Origin: Janibacter sp. A1S7
GTDB lineage: Bacteria; Actinomycetota; Actinomycetes; Actinomycetales; Dermatophilaceae
Direction: 5' to 3'
DNA: 64,000 nucleotides
NCBI RefSeq assembly: GCF_037198315.1
Contig: NZ_CP144913.1
Coordinates: 1-64,000 of the forward strand
Below the pieces are notes generated by a model that did not search any database, had not been told where the DNA came from, and saw nothing but the letters and a program-made list of their open reading frames with translations. The position numbers and the translations under genes are program-made. Below, piece by piece: positions 7,710-30,561 of this stretch. Numbering within the stretch: the stretch's first letter is position 1; each line of letters begins with the position of its first letter.

Positions 7710-8702
7710 CTACGGTTTTGGCGGTGGTGGCGGATTCTCGAGGAGTGGTTGGCCGTGCTCGTCGAGCTCGACGAATCCGTAGGACGTGGTGTCCATCGTG
7801 GTCAGCGGGTCACTGGTGTTTCCGGTGCGCTGCGACCACAGCAGAAGTTGGGTGAGGTTGACGGTGGCCACGGCCAGGACGAGGGCCAGGCCCGTCTTGA
7901 CCAATCCCATTTGGCGGATCCACCCTCGCCGGACACCTCCTGTTGAGAAGTGCTTCATCCTGCCGAAGGAGCCCTCGACGCGGGTGCGCTGGGAGTACTC
8001 GCTGATCCATTCCGGGCTGCCCCAGTAGAGACGTTGACGCAGCTTCAGCCCTACCTCGGACTTGAGGGACATGGTTTCGTTGGCACACGCGGAAAGCACC
8101 TTCCCCTCTGGCGGGGTCATCTGGGGCTTGCTCGCGGCTTCGGGGTGCAACTGGGAGAGAGGGCACTGGGAGCAGACGATCTTCCCTGCTCGGGCGGGGC
8201 AGACGTAACGCTGAGCACCCGAGGCGGCCTTGCCGTTCTTCTCGAACCGGTACTGCCGGCGGTCCGCGATCTTCGCTGAGAAGTTGTCCAGCTCCTTTTG
8301 GTGCTGGGCGTTGAGGGCGAGGACCTCCGGACGAGGGCGCGCTTTGCTGTCGGAGTCGGGGGGTTTCGGCACGGAAAACCGCGTTGGTCGGGAGATGACC
8401 TTCAGCTCAGCGGGCATGGATGGGCAGTGCGGCCAGCCATCGACCATCAGGTAGCCGTGTTCGGTGTGCAGTGTGGCTCCGTGGTCGTTGGGATGGATGT
8501 CCATGACCTGCTCGACCTGTCGATCTGCCAGAGGGCGGGCCCACTTGTCGACATCTCCGTAGGAGAACCCACGATCGGCGAGGATTTCCCGCACCGGGGC
8601 GCCGCTGTCGGCGAGCGTGTCGACGACCTCGATGGACTCCTGGAGCCGCAGCGCAGACTTGCGAACAGAGAGCCTCGAACGCTCCGGCCGAAGCGCGAAG
8701 TC
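7710..8702 (-). pseudogene. 5'-truncated DDE-type transposase (IS remnant)
   Basis: The open frame runs from just inside a TGA at 8703-8705 to the stop at 7710 (about 330 codons). It reads like the C-terminal two thirds of an actinobacterial DDE transposase: ADRGFSYGDVDKWARPL, a Cys-rich segment (YVCPARAGKIVCSQCPL) and a basic RTRVEGSFGRMKH block containing the usual terminal Glu of a DDE triad. No ATG lies near the 5' end; the first in-frame alternative start is a GTG at 8594, which would discard upstream sequence that still reads as protein. No full terminal repeat pair was found. Probably inactive. IS family not assigned with confidence. Confidence 0.7.
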
Positions 8703-8722: not shown

Positions 8723-8753
8723 TTGACATGAGACGTAGTTCACCCTCTATTCT
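8723..8753 (+). promoter_or_regulatory. Sigma-70-type promoter of the catabolic operon
   Basis: A perfect TTGACA -35 at 8723-8728. The -10 could be TCTATT (8746-8751, 17-bp spacing) or TATTCT (8748-8753, 19-bp spacing). Transcription would start around 8758-8762, directly at the palindrome that follows. Confidence 0.6.
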
Positions 8754-8761
8754 GTTCGCAG

Positions 8762-8781
8762 ATGCGGAATGGGTTCCGCAT
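8762..8781. promoter_or_regulatory. Palindromic operator, probably for the IclR regulator
   Basis: Perfect dyad ATGCGGAA-TGGG-TTCCGCAT, with 8-bp arms and a 4-bp spacer, placed between the promoter and the first gene. IclR-family operators are commonly palindromes of this size, and an IclR gene lies inside the operon (13205-14002). Pairing the two is inference. Confidence 0.6.
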
Positions 8782-8805
8782 AACGGAATATTGAGGAGAA
8801 TCTCT

Positions 8806-9936
8806 ATGGCATCGACAATGGCCCGTCGTGCAACCGTCTTGATCTCGGGGACAGCCGTAGCTGCCGTGGCGCTCAGTGCGTGCGGCTCAGGCTCGGCTGC
8901 CAGTGAGGGTGACGTGAAGTTGGGATTGATCGCCGCTGAGCAAGGTCCCTTCGCCTTCGCCGGCTCCTCCTACGCGCAGGGGGCCGAGTTGGCCGCTGAG
9001 CTCGAGGACGTCGAATTGGTCACCGAAGAAGGCTCGGAGGACCCGGCGAAGAGCATTACCGCGTTCAACAAGTTGGCGCAGGATGATGTCAACGCCATCG
9101 TCTGCTGCATTTCGAGCTCAGTCGCGGGCGCTATGAAGCCGTTGGCCACCGAGCAGGAAGTTCCACTCGTCGTGTACGGCGCGACTACGCCGGGCATTCA
9201 GAGTCCTCCATACGTGCTGCGTCCAGCGCTTCTCCCGCAGCAGGGCATCGCCCCAGTGTCCGCCCAGCTGGTTGAAGAACTGGACATCGAGAGCGCGGTC
9301 CATGTCACGGCCAGCGATAACGACGGTCTAGTCGCCCAGAGCGAGGCGGCCCGCACGTCCACGGAAGAGGCGGGAGCCAAGAACCTCGGCACGGTGAAGA
9401 CGCTCGTTGCCGACACCAACTTCAGCGGGGCTGTTACTGAGATCCTGTCCAAGGATGCTGACCTGGTCACCGTCTACACACTTGGGGAAGCGGCGGCCAC
9501 CATCACGAAGTCTCTGCGCGAAAAGGGCTACGACGGCGTCATTCTGGCCAACAACGCGGTCGCCACCGCGCCGTTGCTCAAGTCCTTCGGTAAGACCCTG
9601 GCTGAGACCTACTACTCCGTCGAGTACACACCGGCCAGCACCATCCCAGAGGCCGAGGACTTCACCCAGGCCTATGAGGAGAAGTACGACGAGAAGCCGG
9701 ATGTCTTTGCCTCCCAGGGTTATGTAGCGGTGAAGTATGCGGCGCAAGGCGCCAAGGAGGCAGGAGACGGAGCCGACGCCGCAGCCACTGCCGAATCGCT
9801 TGCGGAGATCTCCACGATGCAGTCGCCGTGGGGCGAGTTGACTTTCGACGACGGTCAAGCAGAAAGCGAGAACTTCCAGATCGTGCAGATCGACGACCAG
9901 GGCGTGCCAGAGCTGTGGAAGGCAGCCAGCAAGTGA
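8806..9936 (+). CDS. Branched-chain-type ABC transporter substrate-binding lipoprotein
   Basis: 376 aa, type I periplasmic binding protein (Peripla_BP_6/LivJ-like). The start is ATG 8806 behind GAGGAGA. The N terminus is a lipoprotein signal with lipobox LSAC followed by GSGS. The mature part has the Rossmann-like start VKLGLIAAEQGPFAFAG and the AGAMKPLATEQEVPLVVYGATTPG segment that shapes the ligand pocket in this family. First gene of the liv-like operon; the ligand could be an amino acid or a carboxylate, and the downstream enzymes favour an organic acid. Confidence 0.9.
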   Translation: MASTMARRATVLISGTAVAAVALSACGSGSAASEGDVKLGLIAAEQGPFAFAGSSYAQGAELAAELEDVELVTEEGSEDPAKSITAFNKLAQDDVNAIVCCISSSVAGAMKPLATEQEVPLVVYGATTPGIQSPPYVLRPALLPQQGIAPVSAQLVEELDIESAVHVTASDNDGLVAQSEAARTSTEEAGAKNLGTVKTLVADTNFSGAVTEILSKDADLVTVYTLGEAAATITKSLREKGYDGVILANNAVATAPLLKSFGKTLAETYYSVEYTPASTIPEAEDFTQAYEEKYDEKPDVFASQGYVAVKYAAQGAKEAGDGADAAATAESLAEISTMQSPWGELTFDDGQAESENFQIVQIDDQGVPELWKAASK

Positions 9937-9975
9937 CCGGGTTGAACCTCGACCTAAGTCGATGGAGGTATTGAC

Positions 9976-10872
9976 GTGGACCTGTTGATCCAACAGATCT
10001 TCAACGGCCTCTCTCTTGGCGCGATCTACGCGGTGTTTGGCGTGGGTTTCGGCCTCATGCTCGCCACGCTTGGCGTGCTAAATGCCGCGCACGGCACCTT
10101 CGCCACTTGGGGAGGTCTGATCGTGCTTTACCTGGTCAACGACATGGGGCTCGGGCTCTGGCTCAGCATCCTCATCGGCGTCATTGCTGCTGGGTTGTTG
10201 GCTGTGGCGGTCGACTTCATCGCCTTTCAGCCCATTCGCAGCCGGAGCGGAGACCTTCTTCCCGCCCTGATCACGAGCATCGGCGTTTGGATCTTCCTGC
10301 TCGCCGCCGCACAGATAGCGACTGGTGCAAAGACCTCACGTTACGCACCGGAGGCGACCCCCCAAGGATCCTTCACCCTGCTAGGGCTGTCGATAGGGCG
10401 GGCCCAACTCATCAGCATCGCTGCGTTGATCATCGTCGGCTTCGGTCTCCACGCCCTTTTGCACCGCACGAAGGTGGGGGCAGCCATGCGCGCCGTAGGC
10501 ACCTCCCCGATGGCCGCTTCACTGGGCGGGGTCAACCCGGTTCTCATTGTCGCCATCACGGCATTCCTATCCGGAGCCATCGCTGGTCTTGCTGGAATCA
10601 CCATGGGATTGAGCACCAGTACGGTCAACTTTCTCCTCGGAGAGGCACTCCTCCTCAAGGGCTTCGCAGCCGTGATCATCGGTGGGTTCGGTGATGTGCG
10701 AGGAACCATTCTCGGCGGCCTACTGATCGGCGTAGCTGAGGTCCTCACGGCCCAGTACGTATCGGGCAGCCTGCGAGACGCCATAACCTTCGGCTTGCTC
10801 TTGGCCTTCTTGGTCTTCAGGCCACGTGGGCTCTTTGGCTCCGCAACCGCGATGAAAACAGCGAGGGCATGA
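9976..10872 (+). CDS. ABC permease, LivH type
   Basis: 298 aa from GTG 9976 (GGAGG at 9964-9968). Polytopic inner-membrane permease of the LivH branch: NGLSLGAIYAVFGVGFGLMLATLGVLN at the N terminus (quoted in part) and the conserved cytoplasmic loop RAVGTSPMAASLGGVN that docks the ATPase. Overlaps the LivM-type gene by 4 bp. Confidence 0.92.
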   Translation: MDLLIQQIFNGLSLGAIYAVFGVGFGLMLATLGVLNAAHGTFATWGGLIVLYLVNDMGLGLWLSILIGVIAAGLLAVAVDFIAFQPIRSRSGDLLPALITSIGVWIFLLAAAQIATGAKTSRYAPEATPQGSFTLLGLSIGRAQLISIAALIIVGFGLHALLHRTKVGAAMRAVGTSPMAASLGGVNPVLIVAITAFLSGAIAGLAGITMGLSTSTVNFLLGEALLLKGFAAVIIGGFGDVRGTILGGLLIGVAEVLTAQYVSGSLRDAITFGLLLAFLVFRPRGLFGSATAMKTARA

Positions 10873-11756
10873 TGACTGAACTCTGGGACCAGTACCGATC
10901 GGTCATTGAATTCGCTATGGCCAACGCGCTCTTCGCCCTGGCCAGCTGGATCGCCATGTGGGCCGGCGTCTTCAGCCTCGCAGGCGCTAGTTTCGGCGCA
11001 GTCGGGGGCTTCAGCGCCGCTTATCTCGATCAAACGATGCAGGCCGGGATCATCGTGCAACTCCTCGTCGGCGCGATCTTGGGCCTCCTCACGGCAGCGA
11101 TCCTGTCGGTGCTCTTGCTCAAGTTGGAGAGCCATTGGATGGCCATGGCAACCGTAGCCTTGGTCCTTATCACCCGAGTCATCATCCTCTCGGCCGAGAA
11201 GTACACCGGCGGCAGCGTCGGTACGAGCATTAGTCGACAGATCGACCTCTTCGTTGTCCTGGTTCTCGTCGCCGGCGTCTGCTACGCCCTCGCTCGCCTG
11301 CGGCGCTCGCGGTACGGCTTGGCGGCACACGCCGTTCGGGAGGACGCAGCTGTCGCCGCGGCCTTGGGGGTCAATCCCTTCCAAGTTCGTGCCATTGCCT
11401 TCATCGCCAGTGGCCTCGTGGCCGGCATCGCGGGCGTCGTTCTGGCCAATTTGCTGCGCTACATCGGTCCTGACACGTTCTTCATCACGCTGGCCTTCAC
11501 CATGGTCGCGGCGATGGTGCTCGGCGGGACCTACCACTGGGCGGGCCCCATCGTTGGCGCGTTGGTTTTCGTCGGCTTGCCCGAGGTCGTCAAGTCCTAC
11601 GTTCAAGGAATTGACGAGCTCATGACTGGAGCGTTGCTAGTGGCCATCATGGTCTTCATGCCCCGAGGGCTGATTGATCCTCGGCGACGACGACGCAAGG
11701 AAACACCTACACCCGACGACGCCGAGGCGACCAGTCGAATGGAGGTGGCGCGATGA
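10869..11756 (+). CDS. ABC permease, LivM type
   Basis: 295 aa; ATG overlaps the previous stop (ATGA). Second half of the membrane channel, with the LivM coupling region (RYGLAAHAVREDAAVAAALG), the IASGLVAGIAGV helix and a GGTYHWAGPIVGALVF segment. Ends in a charged Arg-rich tail and overlaps the LivG-type ATPase by 4 bp. Confidence 0.92.
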   Translation: MMTELWDQYRSVIEFAMANALFALASWIAMWAGVFSLAGASFGAVGGFSAAYLDQTMQAGIIVQLLVGAILGLLTAAILSVLLLKLESHWMAMATVALVLITRVIILSAEKYTGGSVGTSISRQIDLFVVLVLVAGVCYALARLRRSRYGLAAHAVREDAAVAAALGVNPFQVRAIAFIASGLVAGIAGVVLANLLRYIGPDTFFITLAFTMVAAMVLGGTYHWAGPIVGALVFVGLPEVVKSYVQGIDELMTGALLVAIMVFMPRGLIDPRRRRRKETPTPDDAEATSRMEVAR

Positions 11757-12532
11757 GCGACGATCTGCTGACCATCAGTGACCTGTACAAGCGCTTCGGT
11801 GGTGTCACCGCTGTCGACGGTGTCTCCATGACCGTTCCGCAAGGCAAGGTCATGGGCCTCATGGGCCCCAACGGCGCAGGCAAGACCAGCCTTGTCAACC
11901 TCGTCACCGGCTTCTACACCCCAGATCAAGGGGCGGTGGATTTCGCGGGGACCGACGTAGCCGGCTTAGCTCCCCACCTGATCAGTCGAAAGGGGATTAC
12001 GCGGACCTACCAGAACGTTCGTCTGTTGAGTGGGTTCAGTGTCCTCGAGCAGGTTGTCGCCGGGATGTACTCCTCGCGCAAGGCGTCCTCCTTGTCCAGT
12101 CTCTTCTTTTCTCCTGGTGAGCGAAGGGAGCGACGAGCCTGTACAGAGCGAGCAGAGGACCTGCTGGATCGCGTTGGGGTCAGCGAGCGTCATGAACTCG
12201 CCGAAACCCTGCCCTACGGCACCCAACGCAGGGTGGAGATCGCCCGAGCGTTAGCCACCGACCCACAGCTGGTCCTCCTTGATGAGCCCACTGCAGGCAT
12301 GAACACCGAGGAAACCGTGGCGGTAGGAGAACTCATCATCTCGCTCCGCGCTCAGGGACTGACGGTCTTGGTCATCGAGCACAACATGCGACTGATCCTC
12401 GACTACTGCGATCTGGCGTACGTGATGAGCTTCGGACGAGTCCTCCACCAGGGCACCCCTCAGGAGTGTGTGGACGACCCGGAGGTCCAACGGGCCTACT
12501 TCGGAAGGGAAAGCGATGCTTCAGGTATCTGA
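11753..12532 (+). CDS. ABC ATPase, LivG type
   Basis: 259 aa. Walker A GPNGAGKTS, a LivG-type ITRTYQNVRL Q-loop, a degenerate signature segment (LPYGTQRRVEIARAL) and Walker B LVLLDEPTAGMN. The second position of the signature is Pro and the usual Ser is Tyr-Gly, as is common in the LivG family. Overlaps the LivF-type gene by 17 bp. Confidence 0.92.
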   Translation: MSDDLLTISDLYKRFGGVTAVDGVSMTVPQGKVMGLMGPNGAGKTSLVNLVTGFYTPDQGAVDFAGTDVAGLAPHLISRKGITRTYQNVRLLSGFSVLEQVVAGMYSSRKASSLSSLFFSPGERRERRACTERAEDLLDRVGVSERHELAETLPYGTQRRVEIARALATDPQLVLLDEPTAGMNTEETVAVGELIISLRAQGLTVLVIEHNMRLILDYCDLAYVMSFGRVLHQGTPQECVDDPEVQRAYFGRESDASGI

Positions 12533-13208
12533 ACTGAGCGCGAGCTATGGGGCTATTCGTGCGGTTCGCAACATCAGTCTGCACGTTCCCGAAGGCTCCC
12601 TCGTTGCGGTCCTCGGAGCCAACGGCGCGGGCAAATCCACACTCGTTCAATCGATTGCAGGGGTTCACAGGGAAAAGACAGGCTCTGTTCGGCTTGGGGG
12701 TCGAGCAATCCAAAAACTTCCTCTGCATCGAATTACGCGGATGGGCTTGGCATTGGTGCCAGAAGGACGTCACGTGGTGACTTCCCTAACAGTTGCTGAG
12801 AACTTGGGCCTGAGCGCTTTCTCTGGCCGATCCCGCCCCGACCTGTTGGATCGCGTTTATAGCCTTTTTCCCCGCCTGGCGGAACGGCGTGCACAAGAGG
12901 CGGGACTGATGAGTGGCGGCGAGCAGCAGATGCTCGCGATGGGTCGCGCTCTCATGACGGATCCCAAGGTGCTTCTCTTGGATGAACCTTCCATGGGGCT
13001 GGCCCCGAGCATCATTGACATCATCTACACAGCAATCGCTGCACTACACCAAGAGGGGCAGAGCATTCTGCTCATCGAGCAGGACGCAACCCGAGCCCTC
13101 CAGGTGGCCGACCACGCCCACCTGCTTCAGCGCGGCGAAGTACACATGTCCGGAAGCCCTGCCGAGCTGGCGAACAGCGAGGACATTCGGAAGGCCTACC
13201 TCGGATGA
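12516..13208 (+). CDS. ABC ATPase, LivF type
   Basis: 230 aa from ATG 12516, which gives the family start MLQVSELSASYGAIRAVRN; longer in-frame starts only extend into livG. Walker A GANGAGKST, signature MSGGEQQMLAMGRAL, Walker B KVLLLDEPSMGL, and an H-loop replaced by Gln (LLIEQD), which is normal for LivF. Completes a five-component Liv-like importer. Confidence 0.92.
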   Translation: MLQVSELSASYGAIRAVRNISLHVPEGSLVAVLGANGAGKSTLVQSIAGVHREKTGSVRLGGRAIQKLPLHRITRMGLALVPEGRHVVTSLTVAENLGLSAFSGRSRPDLLDRVYSLFPRLAERRAQEAGLMSGGEQQMLAMGRALMTDPKVLLLDEPSMGLAPSIIDIIYTAIAALHQEGQSILLIEQDATRALQVADHAHLLQRGEVHMSGSPAELANSEDIRKAYLG

Positions 13209-14002
13209 CCACGGAGGTGGAGCACGACGGCAGCGACCGCCGCAATTATGTCGCGTCGGTCATCAAAGCGTGCACCGTCGTCGAGGCGCTCGCGGGAGGA
13301 GAAGCCGAGTACACCCTGGCTGAGGTCGCCGAAAGTAGTGACCTGGGCAAGACTACGGTCCACCGTTTACTGGCGTCATTGCAGCGGGTCGGCTGGGTCG
13401 AGCGCGGACCCCGGAACGGATATCGGCTAAGCCTTCGCATGGCACGGCTAACCCACGCGTCGCTGAAGCAATTCAGTGTCCGCCACGAAGCACTGCCGCA
13501 CCTGCGGACCTTGGCCGGAGAATTCGGCGATACCGCGTTCTTGCTCGTGCCGGCAGGAGATGATGGGGCCCTGGTCGTAGAAATGGTTGAAGGCAACAAC
13601 CCACTGAAGGTCAATACGGTGACCATCGGTGCGACCCTCCCATACCACGCAGGCGGCGGCCCAGCGGTGATGGCAGCGCTGGATGACTCCTTGCGCGAAC
13701 GGGTCCTGAATGGACCACGTCAGGCGTTCACCGAATTCACGGACACCTCACGTGCCGCATTAGAAGAGAAGTTCTCCCGAATTCGCGAGCAGGGATATGT
13801 CTTTGCCAAGGACGACCTGAACATCGGGGTGGCCGTAGTGAGCGGCCCAGTCTACGGCCCCGACGGAGCCGTCACGTGCACACTCAGTCTCGGCGGTGCC
13901 GCTGACCATTACGACGGCGACCAACTGGAAAAGATCATCACCGGAGTGCGCGCAGCCTGCGCAGCACTATCTGAGCGCCTCGGCGCCCCAGCCTTGCGGT
14001 GA
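13205..14002 (+). CDS. IclR-family transcriptional regulator
   Basis: 265 aa; ATG overlaps livF by 4 bp. N-terminal winged helix-turn-helix (about residues 15-75; TLAEVAESSDLGKTTVHRLL) and C-terminal IclR effector domain (about 95-260; YHAGGGPAVMAAL, GVAVVSGPVYGPDGAV). Located between transporter and enzyme genes, so it likely senses the transported acid or a breakdown product and acts at the palindrome at 8762-8781. Confidence 0.92.
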   Translation: MTTEVEHDGSDRRNYVASVIKACTVVEALAGGEAEYTLAEVAESSDLGKTTVHRLLASLQRVGWVERGPRNGYRLSLRMARLTHASLKQFSVRHEALPHLRTLAGEFGDTAFLLVPAGDDGALVVEMVEGNNPLKVNTVTIGATLPYHAGGGPAVMAALDDSLRERVLNGPRQAFTEFTDTSRAALEEKFSRIREQGYVFAKDDLNIGVAVVSGPVYGPDGAVTCTLSLGGAADHYDGDQLEKIITGVRAACAALSERLGAPALR

Positions 14003-14021
14003 CCCACGGAAAGGAACAGAG

Positions 14022-14888
14022 ATGAACACTTTTAGGGAAACGTTATCGGAGGGCTTGGTGTACGCACCAGGCGTCTGGGATGGATTGACCGCCCGACTGG
14101 CCGATCAAAGTGGCTTCTCTGCACTATGCGCGTCAGGTTTTGCGATTTCAGCATCGCTCGGCCTCCCAGATGCCGAGATGTATTCCATGACAGAGAACCT
14201 TGAGGCAGTACGCCGCATTCGCGGCGCATCTCGTCTTCCGATCGTGGCCGACATTGACACCGGGTACGGCAACGCCGTCAACGCGGCGCGAACAGCACGG
14301 ATGTTTGCCGACTCAGGGGTCTCGGCCGTATTCATGGAAGATCAACTCGCGCCCAAGCGCTGCCCTGTCGCCACAAGCGACGCGCCCACCCTGCTACCCG
14401 TCAAGGAAGCGGCAGGAAAAATCCGCGCGGTGCGCGACTCAGTGGGAGACGAGGTCGTCCTCATTGGCCGCACGGACGGCATCGGGGAAGACGCGATACG
14501 ACGGGCAGAGGCCTACGTCGAGGCTGGTGCAGAGCTCATCATGCCGATCTCACGGGGCTTCCCGACCGCCGAAGCATGGGCAGATCTTCATACCCGGGTC
14601 GGAGTCCCCCTAATGTGCTCGCTCACCGCGTGGACGTGGACCGCGGAGGAGTTCACCCCCGAAGTTCTCGAACAAATCGGCGTACGTCTCGCCCTTTTGC
14701 CCACACAGATCCTGCTCGCCGCCAGCACCGGCATTAGGGATTCCTTGCAACGTCTTTCTGCGGGCGAACCACCCGCAAAGGTCAGCAGTGACTACATGGA
14801 ACACACTGAATTCTTGCAACTTATCGGCTTCGACGAGGTCATGAAACAGCAAGAAACGTACCTCCCCCAAGCAATCGAGGAGTCGTGA
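14022..14888 (+). CDS. Isocitrate lyase/PEP mutase-superfamily C-C lyase
   Basis: 288 aa from ATG 14022 (AAGGAAC upstream). TIM-barrel enzyme with superfamily metal and substrate residues: Asp77/Asp79 (ADIDTGYGN), Glu106-Asp107 (FMEDQ) and a mobile-loop Lys112-Arg113-Cys114. The loop continues P-V-A rather than the G-H of isocitrate and methylisocitrate lyases. Known relatives cleave methylisocitrate or 2,3-dimethylmalate, or decarboxylate oxaloacetate. Next to a two-subunit aconitase-like enzyme, the arrangement recalls the dimethylmalate dehydratase/lyase pair of anaerobic nicotinate degradation, so cleavage of an alkyl-malate to pyruvate or glyoxylate plus a short acid is the best guess. 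Substrate not provable here. Overlaps the next gene by 4 bp (GTGA). Confidence 0.82.
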   Translation: MNTFRETLSEGLVYAPGVWDGLTARLADQSGFSALCASGFAISASLGLPDAEMYSMTENLEAVRRIRGASRLPIVADIDTGYGNAVNAARTARMFADSGVSAVFMEDQLAPKRCPVATSDAPTLLPVKEAAGKIRAVRDSVGDEVVLIGRTDGIGEDAIRRAEAYVEAGAELIMPISRGFPTAEAWADLHTRVGVPLMCSLTAWTWTAEEFTPEVLEQIGVRLALLPTQILLAASTGIRDSLQRLSAGEPPAKVSSDYMEHTEFLQLIGFDEVMKQQETYLPQAIEES

Positions 14889-16159
14889 CAAAAATGGGAC
14901 AAACCATCACACAGAAGATACTTTCGCGCGCAGGAAGTGTAGACGCCGCCCAGGTCGGCGAAAACTACCCCGTTCGCCCAGACTACATGGTCGCGTACGA
15001 CTTCCCTGGATACACCGATCGGTTCTTCCGTCAGATGAAGGAAGACTTCGGTGTCACGAAGGTCGCAGAACCGGATCGGTACGTGCTCTTCATCGACCAT
15101 TTGCTTTCGAACAAGAACGAACATGAGGCAGAGGTCCACAAGGTCACCCGTGACTGGGCCCACAAGAATGGTGTCCATTTCCACGAAGGTGAAGGCATCG
15201 GACACCAGGTCGCGGCGGAACTTGGGTACGCGCTACCCGGATCCTTTCTGATTCATTTCGATGGCCACATCTCCAGCTTGGGGGCCTTTGGTTCGCTCGG
15301 GATGGGCGTGCGTCGCGACCTGCTCGAAGGCTGGGTCACCGGCGGAATCAACCTCGACATCCCCGACACCACGCGCTTCCATCTGACGGGCTCACTCGCC
15401 CCCGGTCTGGAGAGCCGTGACCTAATCCACAAGATCATCTCCGACATCGGTGCCGATGGCGTTGCATTCCAAGTCATGGAGTACACCGGCCCTGGCGCTC
15501 AGGCGATGCCTCTGGGACAGCGACAGGCGTTGTGTGGCATGGCGATGTTCGCTGGCGGAGTCTCGGCGATCTTCAATCCCGATGAGCTGAGCCTCGAGTA
15601 CAGCCGTAAGGTCGCCAAAAAGGACTTCGAGCCCCTCTACAGCGACCCGGACGCCGAGTACGCAGCACGTTACGACATCAACTTGAACGACCTAAGTCCG
15701 CAAATCGTCCTACCCGGCTCCGCCCGCGCTGCCAACACTCACGATGTGCGAGAGGTCAGCGGTCAAAAAATCCAGCGTGCGTTCATCGGTTCCTGTGCCA
15801 GCGGGCGGATCGAGGACATCCGGGCAGCCGCCCAGATTCTCGAAGGTGAGCGGGTCGCATCCGGCGTCGAGTTGAATGTTGTCCCAACCTCCAAGCGGAT
15901 TTACGACCAGGCTGAAAGCGAAGGCCTACTCGACACGTTGCGTACCGCAGGAGCGCACGTCGTGGAGTCATCCTGCGATTTCTGTTTCGGTTACGCCAAG
16001 CCGCTAGCGCCAGGTGAGGTGTGCGTTTCAACCGGTGTGCTGAACATCGCAGGCAGGATGGGCAGCGCCGATGCTGACATCTTCATGGGATCGGCAACGA
16101 CAGTTGCGGCCAGCGCATTGACGGGTTCATTGACTGACCCCCGTGAGGTGGTGAACTGA
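14885..16159 (+). CDS. Aconitase-family hydro-lyase, large (Fe-S) subunit
   Basis: 424 aa from GTG 14885, LeuC-like. Three cluster-ligand cysteines are present: Cys304 (IGSCASGR) and Cys364/Cys367 (SSCDFCFG), followed by the LAPGEVCVST segment. An FIDH motif lies at 69-72. Active-site variations compared with isopropylmalate isomerase: GSCTNSR becomes GSCASGR, and CGDSHTSTHGAFG becomes HFDGHISSLGAFG. It should add or remove water on a malate/maleate-type substrate. The genome context lacks leucine-biosynthesis genes, so a catabolic role (DmdA-like) fits better than LeuC. Overlaps the small subunit by 1 bp. Confidence 0.85.
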   Translation: MTKMGQTITQKILSRAGSVDAAQVGENYPVRPDYMVAYDFPGYTDRFFRQMKEDFGVTKVAEPDRYVLFIDHLLSNKNEHEAEVHKVTRDWAHKNGVHFHEGEGIGHQVAAELGYALPGSFLIHFDGHISSLGAFGSLGMGVRRDLLEGWVTGGINLDIPDTTRFHLTGSLAPGLESRDLIHKIISDIGADGVAFQVMEYTGPGAQAMPLGQRQALCGMAMFAGGVSAIFNPDELSLEYSRKVAKKDFEPLYSDPDAEYAARYDINLNDLSPQIVLPGSARAANTHDVREVSGQKIQRAFIGSCASGRIEDIRAAAQILEGERVASGVELNVVPTSKRIYDQAESEGLLDTLRTAGAHVVESSCDFCFGYAKPLAPGEVCVSTGVLNIAGRMGSADADIFMGSATTVAASALTGSLTDPREVVN

Positions 16160-16692
16160 TGACTGCGCTCCCACAAGTCCTTCCTGATGTGTTGACCGGA
16201 CGGGTTGCATGGATCTTCGGAGATGATCACGACATCGACTTGATGATCGGCGTGGAGAACATCAAGTACACGGACCCTGACCATCTGCACAGCGTGTGCA
16301 TGAAGGCCTATGAGGAAGACTTCACCGATAAAGTAAGGGAGGGCGACTGGCTCGTTGGTGGACGAAACTTCGGATATGGTCACCCTCACTACGTCGCTAT
16401 GACTGCAATGCGCAATGAAGGCATCGTCGGGGTCATAGCTGAATCGTTCGCGCCGGGTTTCTGGCGAGGCGAGGTAAGCAACGGGATGCCGTTACTCACG
16501 GTTCCAGGGGTCTCATCCGCCGTTGAACGGTGGGACGAGCTTGAGGTGAATTGGCGCGAGGCGACTGTCAAGGTTGCGTCGAAGGGACTTGAGCTACAGG
16601 GGCAGCCGCTAAATGAGAGAGGACAAGAAATGATCGCAGCTGGTGGGAGGTACGCTTTGCTTCTCGCCGAGCACGGGACGAAAGTCAACTAA
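16159..16692 (+). CDS. Aconitase-family hydro-lyase, small (swivel) subunit
   Basis: 177 aa, LeuD-like swivel domain. The family motif NFGCGSSREHA is replaced by NFGYGHPHYVA (residues 70-80), removing the Ser-Ser-Arg-Glu group that contacts substrate carboxylates in LeuD and aconitase. IGVENIKYTDP at 30-40 occupies the place of the substrate-specificity loop, and the C-terminal half keeps the IAESFAPGFWRGEVSNGMPLL fold (shown in part). Last gene of the operon. Confidence 0.85.
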   Translation: MTALPQVLPDVLTGRVAWIFGDDHDIDLMIGVENIKYTDPDHLHSVCMKAYEEDFTDKVREGDWLVGGRNFGYGHPHYVAMTAMRNEGIVGVIAESFAPGFWRGEVSNGMPLLTVPGVSSAVERWDELEVNWREATVKVASKGLELQGQPLNERGQEMIAAGGRYALLLAEHGTKVN

Positions 16693-16835
16693 CAAGCAGA
16701 CAGCGACCGCCCCGTGCCTCTCCGGCCCAAATCTTCCATCGCGTTCCCGCCATAACAGCGGTCAATGAGGTCCCAGGCAGGTCCGCGTTGAGAGTCAACC
16801 GTCCAGCCAGTGAGCCTCCGAAGGGCGCTTGCCAG

Positions 16836-16871
16836 AACTCGCCCTGACCCACCTGCGGGTCAGGGCGAGTT
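16836..16871 (+). terminator. Strong terminator hairpin ending the catabolic operon
   Basis: Perfect 15-bp stem AACTCGCCCTGACCC (16836-16850) / GGGTCAGGGCGAGTT (16857-16871) with a 6-nt ACCTGC loop. There is no long T run, as is usual in actinobacteria. It lies 144 bp after the last enzyme gene. Confidence 0.8.
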
Positions 16872-29595: not shown

Positions 29596-29656
29596 GAGCG
29601 CTCGTCGCCGTGATCGTGGCGGTCCTCGCCATGGCATCACCACCGGGTGGTCGAGG

Positions 29657-29691
29657 AAACCCTCGCCGTGGACACTCCACGGCGAGGGTTT
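29657..29691. terminator. Bidirectional terminator
   Basis: Perfect 16-bp stem AAACCCTCGCCGTGGA (29657-29672) / TCCACGGCGAGGGTTT (29676-29691) with a 3-nt loop; T-rich on both strands. It separates the convergent metal-ATPase and aldo/keto reductase genes. Confidence 0.85.
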
Positions 29692-29715
29692 GCTCGTATC
29701 GGCGAACGCGTCGGG

Positions 29716-30561
29716 TCAGTCGGGCACGACGTTCATCTCGTCCGGGTTCGGGCCCCGGCGCCCGTCCTCGCCCTTGTCCAGGTTGCTGACCGCGGTCATC
29801 TGCTCGTCGGTCAGCTCGAAGTCGAAGATGGCGAAGTTGGCCTGGATGCGGCCGGGAGTCACCGACTTGGGGAAGATGATGTCGCCCCGCTGCAGCTGCC
29901 AGCGCAGCACCACCTGGGCGGGCGTGCGCTCGACGTCTCCGGCGATGCCCACCAGGACCGGGTCGTCCAGGACGGCGCCCTGCGCGATCGGGGACCATGA
30001 CTCGACCTGCGCACCGTGTCGCCGGGTGGCCTCGCGGGCGACGTCATTGGTGAAGTACGGGTGCACCTCGATCTGGTTGACCGCCGGGACCTCACCCGTC
30101 TCGGAGACGATCCGGTCCAGGTGGTCCGGCTGGAAGTTCGAGACCCCCACCGAGGTGGCCAGCCCGGCCTCCCGCATCTCGAGCAGCGCGCGCCAGGTGG
30201 AGACGTAGTCCCCGTCGTGGACCTGCGGCAACGGCCAGTGGATGAGGAAGAGGTCGACATGGTCCAGCCCGAGCAGCTCCAGCGACTCGCGCAACGAGCG
30301 CTTGGCGTCCTCGGGCAGGTGGTTGTTGTTGTTCAGCTTGGTGGTGATGTACAGGTCCTCGCGGGCCAGTCCGGACTCGGCGATCGCCTCGCCCACGCCC
30401 TTCTCGTTGCCGTACATCTGGGCGGTGTCGATGTGCCGGTAGCCGGCCTCGAAGGCCGTCAGCACCGCCTCCTTGGTGTCCTCGGGCGGGATCTGGAAGA
30501 CCCCGAAGCCGAGCTGCGGGATGGTGGTGTCGTCGTTGAGCTTCAGCGTCGGAACAGTCAT
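29716..30561 (-). CDS. Aldo/keto reductase
   Basis: 281 aa from ATG 30561. NADPH-dependent TIM-barrel oxidoreductase with the catalytic tetrad Asp and Tyr in DTAQMYGNE, Lys in ITTKLNNNN and His in LIHWPLP. Also the GVSNF strand, NQIEVHPY, and the cofactor segment IIFPKSVTPGRIQ. Close in style to 2,5-diketogluconate/methylglyoxal reductases of the AKR5 group. The true substrate is unknown. Confidence 0.93.
   Translation of the reverse strand: MTVPTLKLNDDTTIPQLGFGVFQIPPEDTKEAVLTAFEAGYRHIDTAQMYGNEKGVGEAIAESGLAREDLYITTKLNNNNHLPEDAKRSLRESLELLGLDHVDLFLIHWPLPQVHDGDYVSTWRALLEMREAGLATSVGVSNFQPDHLDRIVSETGEVPAVNQIEVHPYFTNDVAREATRRHGAQVESWSPIAQGAVLDDPVLVGIAGDVERTPAQVVLRWQLQRGDIIFPKSVTPGRIQANFAIFDFELTDEQMTAVSNLDKGEDGRRGPNPDEMNVVPD

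Follow-up and report, generated by a model that had tools for sequence, protein, structure and literature searches.

A nine-gene operon of Janibacter sp. A1S7 encoding an importer, a divergent aconitase-like pair and a matched lyase: a putative module for carboxylic acid catabolism

A putative catabolic operon

The first 64 kb of the Janibacter sp. A1S7 genome, which is a single contig of 3.36 Mb, was analyzed (64,000 nucleotides; termed the window). This window contains a nine-gene operon whose products are, in order, a substrate-binding protein, LivH, LivM, LivG, LivF, an IclR-family regulator, a lyase of the isocitrate lyase/phosphoenolpyruvate mutase (ICL/PEPM) superfamily and the large and small subunits of an aconitase-like enzyme (Table 1). 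Our preferred reading, to which we assign a probability of about 0.5, is that the operon serves to degrade a carboxylic acid taken up from outside, under the control of IclR, and combines a new clade of the aconitase superfamily with a lyase matched to it. In this proposal, a horizontally moving operon would supply a Liv-type ABC importer for uptake of the acid; the two-subunit [4Fe-4S] enzyme would add or move water to generate a 2-hydroxy acid, the role of the usual serine base falling to another residue, perhaps the initial His of a GHPH motif; and the ICL-type, Mg-dependent, Cys-containing lyase would cut between C2 and C3, yielding a 2-oxo acid together with a second, smaller product. Control of the operon would be exerted by the IclR protein at a palindrome before the first gene. 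We infer the enzyme activity, cluster binding, order of steps and 2-hydroxy-acid intermediate from sequence comparisons, in which the genes and their linkage, an operator-like site, the residues retained or lost and two clades were established. An initial annotation had described an uptake, hydration and C-C cleavage operon for a substituted malate or maleate; the present work upheld such a module, which carries a regulator of its own and is conserved as a whole, but not the substrate.

A broader proposal, held tentatively and at somewhat less than even odds, is that the pair represents a third branch of aconitase chemistry, present in Actinobacteria and Proteobacteria, in which an invariant His-Pro-His replaces the serine base and which, with a co-adapted lyase, acts on a new class of acid. 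If true, this would allow the breakdown of a class of acid handled by no known aconitase. Should the enzyme be active, the serine base regarded as the hallmark of aconitase catalysis would be replaceable, and a pathway from uptake to cleavage could be tested directly via its own binding protein. No prior description of the window clade was found by title or abstract in the open-access literature.

Active-site residues of the aconitase-like pair

The fold of the aconitase superfamily was detected in both subunits by Pfam models (Table 1). Residues were compared across a set of 20 loci, including those of the nine hydratase-positive genomes of the class (the window's own among the nine), and among 120 listed proteins of the 759 homologues found. 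The small subunit has NFGYGHPHY where its two closest PDB relatives have NFGCGSSRE, and the GHPH motif was invariant (20/20 loci and 120/120 listed proteins). As GSSR is replaced by GHPH, the Ser642 base of mitochondrial aconitase (mAcn) has been lost, and the equivalent residue is His in every one of these loci and listed proteins. According to excerpts of PMC8184944, Ser642 is the general base of mAcn, over 15 of the 20 residues in the active site are identical among the known enzymes, and aconitase X retains a serine at this place (Ser70, with Ser62 superimposed on it), in contrast to the His of the window clade. Aconitase X resembles the pair in being a divergent branch of the superfamily, with a weak Pfam match of 26.4 bits (cutoff, 31.5).

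Alignment of the large subunit with 5acn indicated that the three Fe-S cysteines (Cys358, Cys421 and Cys424 in mAcn) are retained, as a GSC motif and a CxxC in 120/120 listed proteins, together with His147, Asp165, His167 and Arg452. The motifs DGH and STGVLN were each present in 120/120 listed proteins. Other positions were changed: Ser166 to Gly, Asn258 to Gly or Ala, Glu262 to Phe (119/120 listed proteins, with one unparsed), Asn446 to Val (Thr in four proteobacterial loci) and Arg447 to Leu. Counting Ser642, Ser643 and Arg644, eight aligned active-site positions were altered. An alteration of this extent around the active site would suit a pair that is a pseudo-enzyme or performs other Fe-S chemistry, leaving the lyase to cleave the imported acid alone. 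We regard this explanation as quite improbable, as the cysteines and the equivalents of His147, Asp165, His167 and Arg452 persist and the replacing residues are for the most part themselves invariant or almost invariant, which is what a working site would show.

Identity with the isopropylmalate isomerase of the leucine pathway (LeuCD) was considered and rejected. The score against TIGR00170 was 166.7 (cutoff, 560.25), the large subunit fell on a branch separate from the LeuC proteins of E. coli and of the genome itself, and an ordinary LeuCD with canonical motifs (GDSH, NRNF and SSREHA) is encoded elsewhere in the genome. The grouping with leucine-pathway LeuCD that would have refuted the initial annotation was thus not observed. 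The pair shares its fold family, subunit split and Fe-S cysteines with isopropylmalate/citramalate isomerases and homoaconitase (PDB 4nqy, 4kp1, 4kp2 and 3vba) but differs from them in lacking the catalytic serine and several other active-site residues and in its gene context. The names usually given to these proteins in their sources (3-isopropylmalate dehydratase, methylisocitrate lyase, PEP mutase and oxaloacetate decarboxylase) are likely to be wrong, because the active-site residues of both enzymes differ.

Residues and family of the lyase

The lyase was compared, in E. coli PrpB numbering, across the 19 family loci and, for the loop, among 120 listed of 2143 homologues. The Mg-binding acids, catalytic Cys and substrate Arg of ICL/PEPM lyases were present in 19/19 loci, with D58, D85, D87, E115, K121, C123 and R158 all retained. 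Cys123 and Asp58 of methylisocitrate lyase correspond to the catalytic Cys191 and Asp108 in excerpts of PMC7609661. The superfamily and Mg site are thus shared with PrpB, phosphonopyruvate hydrolase and PEP mutase, and the catalytic Cys is shared with PrpB. Unlike PrpB, the family has Pro at Gly124 (19/19), Lys or Arg at Glu188 (19/19) and a mostly aliphatic residue at His125, and N210 and R241 are lost. The loop was KxCP in 120/120 listed proteins and KxCGH in 0/120; the K[KR]CGH loop of methylisocitrate- and dimethylmalate-type lyases is therefore not that of this lyase. The PrpB motif is given as KRCGH in excerpts of PMC11982470.

Oxaloacetate decarboxylase, a grouping with which would have counted against the initial annotation, is not favored as the identity of the lyase on a ranking of structures. 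The PA4872 decarboxylase scored 82.1 bits, as against 119.5 for the best structure, and structures of phosphonomutase-like proteins, phosphonopyruvate hydrolase and methylisocitrate lyase all ranked above it; the lyase tree did not contain a decarboxylase. A role in phosphonate biosynthesis, where an isopropylmalate dehydratase-like pair and PEP mutase also meet (excerpts of PMC7858074), was likewise not favored, because the score against the PEP mutase model was low (116.9; cutoff, 319.55) and the Cys of C-C lyases is retained.

Paired change in the two enzymes

In a tree of the large subunit with 14 outside sequences, the 20 family members formed one side of a branch (support, 100/99). The nearest outside sequences were two Roseomonas proteins (94/98; long branches flagged), followed at a fork of 89/86 by two canonical subunits that accompany KxCGH lyases (L040 and L074). 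The 19 family lyases similarly formed one side of a branch (100/100) in a tree with seven outside lyases. Three plasmid loci (L040, L074 and L077) carry an SSR-type small subunit together with a KxCGH lyase; thus, in the loci seen, the two changes were paired, with 3 loci canonical and 19 changed in both. This pairing suggests, but does not prove, that both enzymes are adapted to one altered substrate. As both changed together, we think that the substrate departs from malate-type substrates in the portion remote from the 2-hydroxy acid, where the latter have a carboxylate.

In nicotinate fermentation, 2,3-dimethylmalate dehydratase (DmdAB) acts with dimethylmalate lyase. The operon might act similarly on an alkyl-maleate or 2,3-dimethylmaleate-type acid, with DmdAB-like hydration and dimethylmalate lyase-like cleavage to pyruvate and a short acid. 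Enzymes of the same two superfamilies adjoin each other in both systems, the L040 and L074 subunits are the nearest to the family after the Roseomonas pair, and the best NCBIfam model for the small subunit was LeuD/DmdB (107.5 bits, 1.45 below the cutoff of 108.95). With the canonical plasmid pairs of L040, L074 and L077 standing in for authentic DmdAB, the window operon differed in having an importer, GHPH for GSSR and KxCP for KxCGH. Residues that these canonical pairs keep have been replaced in both enzymes at once, which makes a dimethylmaleate-type substrate unlikely; on the same ground, the malate or maleate substrate of the initial annotation, modeled on nicotinate fermentation, is not supported. 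The three plasmid pairs are themselves candidates for a dimethylmalate-type route.

The aconitase-like small subunits of the two Roseomonas plasmids (L041, 5284-5817; L075, 4954-5493) also lack the serine (NFGHHNHV), and their large subunits lie on the branch adjacent to the family. These loci differ from the window operon in that no ICL/PEPM lyase is annotated in the 8 to 9 kb covered; the neighboring genes encode a tripartite-type binding protein, an alpha/beta hydrolase and a flavin reductase.

Conservation of the gene cluster

Two Aeromicrobium loci (L006 and L007) contain all nine genes in the same order, with 71 to 88% protein identity. A rearranged core was present in Actinoallomurus and Actinomadura (L008 to L012), with a varying complement of extra genes (KstD-like flavoprotein, alpha/beta hydrolase, acyl-CoA ligase, and OsmC or cyclase genes), and was present again, with different accessory genes, on plasmids of Azospirillum, Variovorax and Comamonas. 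The lyase was found in the cluster at 19/20 loci, the remaining locus starting at a contig end. Lyase and hydratase are about 5 kb apart in L025. IclR was present in 17/20 loci (not seen in L011, L031 and L032). Liv genes were present in 14/20 loci and an MHS-type symporter cluster (one member typed) in 5/20, while L010 was cut.

Searches for the hydratase at an E value of ≤1e-100 detected it in 9/394 genomes of the class and 2/396 genomes of a phylum sample, own genome included in each. The lyase was within 30 bp of the hydratase in 9/9 of the positive class genomes. Three further class genomes had lyase matches of 37 to 40% with KxCGH loops, and no small- or large-subunit motif was present in the 3.8 kb examined in them. 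At 1e-80, the only match among 58 relatives was the genome of the window; hence, the hydratase was present in 0/15 other genomes of the genus. The full synteny in Aeromicrobium and the adjacency of lyase and hydratase show that the genes co-occur in other genomes, as the initial annotation required.

A probable operator

A perfect palindrome, ATGCGGAATGGGTTCCGCAT in the window, precedes the first gene and is a probable IclR-type operator of the operon, judging from its sequence and conserved placement. Related sites were scored over 14 positions against a consensus taken from the window site, whose own score of 14 is by construction; L011 was not scored. Sites scoring at least 10/14 and starting 34 to 43 bp upstream of the first gene were detected in 13/15 actinobacterial loci, and sites of at least 12/14 in 9/15. 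L031 had a score of 9 at the same distance, the best site of L013 was elsewhere, and L032 had an additional, better site (score, 13) farther upstream. The site was retained whether the first gene encoded the binding protein, as in some loci, or the lyase, as in others. Among 3,800 shuffles of 300-bp upstream regions, preserving base composition only, scores of 10, 11 and 12 were reached anywhere in 415, 54 and 3 cases, respectively, and the best scores elsewhere in the loci were 10 to 11. Scores of 10 to 11 are therefore weak in isolation, and the case for an operator rests on the constant spacing together with scores of 12 to 14. The protein binding this palindrome would be the operon's own IclR.

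Imported compound and product

An amino acid was considered as a possible ligand of the binding protein. One pocket position was Asn in 4/4 loci of the window's clade and Glu (five) or Asp (one) in the other six loci aligned. This position aligns with an acidic residue of several amino acid-type binding proteins in the PDB.

The host genome was searched for genes of glyoxylate metabolism. No malate synthase was found, and no match to PF00463 besides the operon lyase; a distant PEPM-type protein (31%) is present. Glyoxylate carboligase gave no match above the cutoff and five weaker ones; matches were also found in 14/14 control genomes, one being above the cutoff. For this host, these searches shift the balance from glyoxylate toward pyruvate or another usable 2-oxo acid as the product. 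The initial annotation had allowed either pyruvate or glyoxylate.

The same searches bear on an isomerase-lyase scheme of the aconitase and isocitrate lyase type, in which a 2-substituted malate (for example, 2-isopropylmalate or a longer 2-alkylmalate) would be converted to a 3-substituted malate and then to glyoxylate and a carboxylic acid. This scheme requires only the genes present, and in several relatives the acid could be activated by acyl-CoA ligases (cluster c6) encoded close to the hydratase. We consider it the least likely of the explanations weighed here, given a host without malate synthase, another PF00463 match or an above-cutoff glyoxylate carboligase and given the loss of Ser642 and other isomerase residues.

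Several observations weigh against an IclR-controlled module for one imported acid. Loss of the equivalents of Ser642, Glu262, Asn258, Arg447 and Arg644 may mean that the pair catalyzes a different reaction or is inactive. The binding protein of the window is only about 33 to 37% identical to those of actinobacterial loci outside its clade and, with the pocket position also varying, the imported compound may differ by lineage; the accessory genes also vary from lineage to lineage. A malyl-CoA lyase-like gene, read from the sequence, lies nearby in L013 and would fit glyoxylate. IclR was not seen in L031 and L032, yet L032 carries the operator-like site, and no such site was found upstream of the first gene in the proteobacterial loci (0/4). 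Finally, both the large-subunit and lyase trees carried long-branch warnings.

Layout of the locus and genomic setting

The initial annotation of a Liv-type importer, an IclR regulator, an ICL/PEPM lyase and a two-subunit aconitase-like enzyme was confirmed as nine intact open reading frames, with the importer set complete (a binding protein, two permeases and two ATPases, by Pfam and NCBIfam). Position 8723, where the annotated region began, lies in the upstream region; 8806 was taken as the first start codon. The largest gap, between the binding protein and LivH genes, is 39 bp, and that between the IclR and lyase genes is 19 bp; the remaining neighbors overlap by 1 to 17 bp, making transcription as one message plausible from the layout. 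The best NCBIfam model for the regulator was NF045644 (BhcR), at 110 bits and below the cutoff of 350.

Table 1. Features of the operon and its flanks in the window
Feature	Position	Strand	Remarks
Transposase open reading frame	7710-8594	-	Only C-terminal part of IS1182 model matched, below cutoff
Perfect palindrome ATGCGGAA-TGGG-TTCCGCAT, probable IclR-type operator	8762-8781	.	Ends 24 bp before first start codon
Nine-gene operon	8806-16692	+	All genes head to tail, all open reading frames intact
Substrate-binding protein, Liv/HAAT-type ABC importer	8806-9936	+	PF13458, E = 1.2e-50; PDB relatives
LivH-type permease	9976-10872	+	PF02653; NCBIfam
LivM-type permease	10869-11756	+	PF02653; NCBIfam
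LivG-type ATPase	11753-12532	+	Best model NF008449, under cutoff
LivF-type ATPase	12516-13208	+	Best model NF008626, under cutoff
IclR-family regulator	13205-14002	+	PF09339 and PF01614 (HTH_IclR and IclR_C)
ICL/PEPM-superfamily lyase, KRCP loop	14022-14888	+	PF13714
Large subunit, divergent aconitase-like hydro-lyase	14885-16159	+	PF00330, E = 8.1e-71
Small subunit, GHPH replacing catalytic GSSR	16159-16692	+	PF00694, 23.6 bits; cutoff, 22.8
Terminator-like hairpin, 15-bp stem, no T-run	16836-16871	+	Perfect stem: AACTCGCCCTGACCC and its exact reverse complement

The 15-bp-stem terminator of the initial annotation was borne out in part. The perfect stem was confirmed, and the RNA was predicted to fold stably (-41.7 kcal/mol; shuffled mean, -20.9; z, -6.85). 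The hairpin is followed by TGGTGGGT instead of a T-run and was absent from the output of a terminator scan. A promoter scan of the region found no sigma-70-type promoter.

The operon lies after tRNA-Leu(CAG) and the IS1182-like transposase open reading frame. Its G+C content of 0.607, as against about 0.65 to 0.74 in windows away from it, agrees with the earlier description of lower-GC DNA; in L006 the operon has 0.716. In the sister genome G005, the tRNA is followed by 11 bp and then by DNA matching window positions 29651-30000, so that about 22 kb (7427-29650) is variable. Integration at tRNA-Leu was considered and rejected despite this variable stretch, since a search of the window for exact copies of at least 12 bp from the 3' end of the tRNA was negative and no integrase was found among the six open reading frames read from the stretch. 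In L006 (3571-11805) and L007 (2229-11805), the operon likewise follows tRNA-Leu(CAG) and lies beside an fhaA-like gene. The stretch at 7427-29650 also contains a siderophore-type importer and a short-chain dehydrogenase/reductase and, as read from the sequence, genes for an OsmC-like protein, a solute symporter, an ArsR-like regulator and a P-type ATPase.

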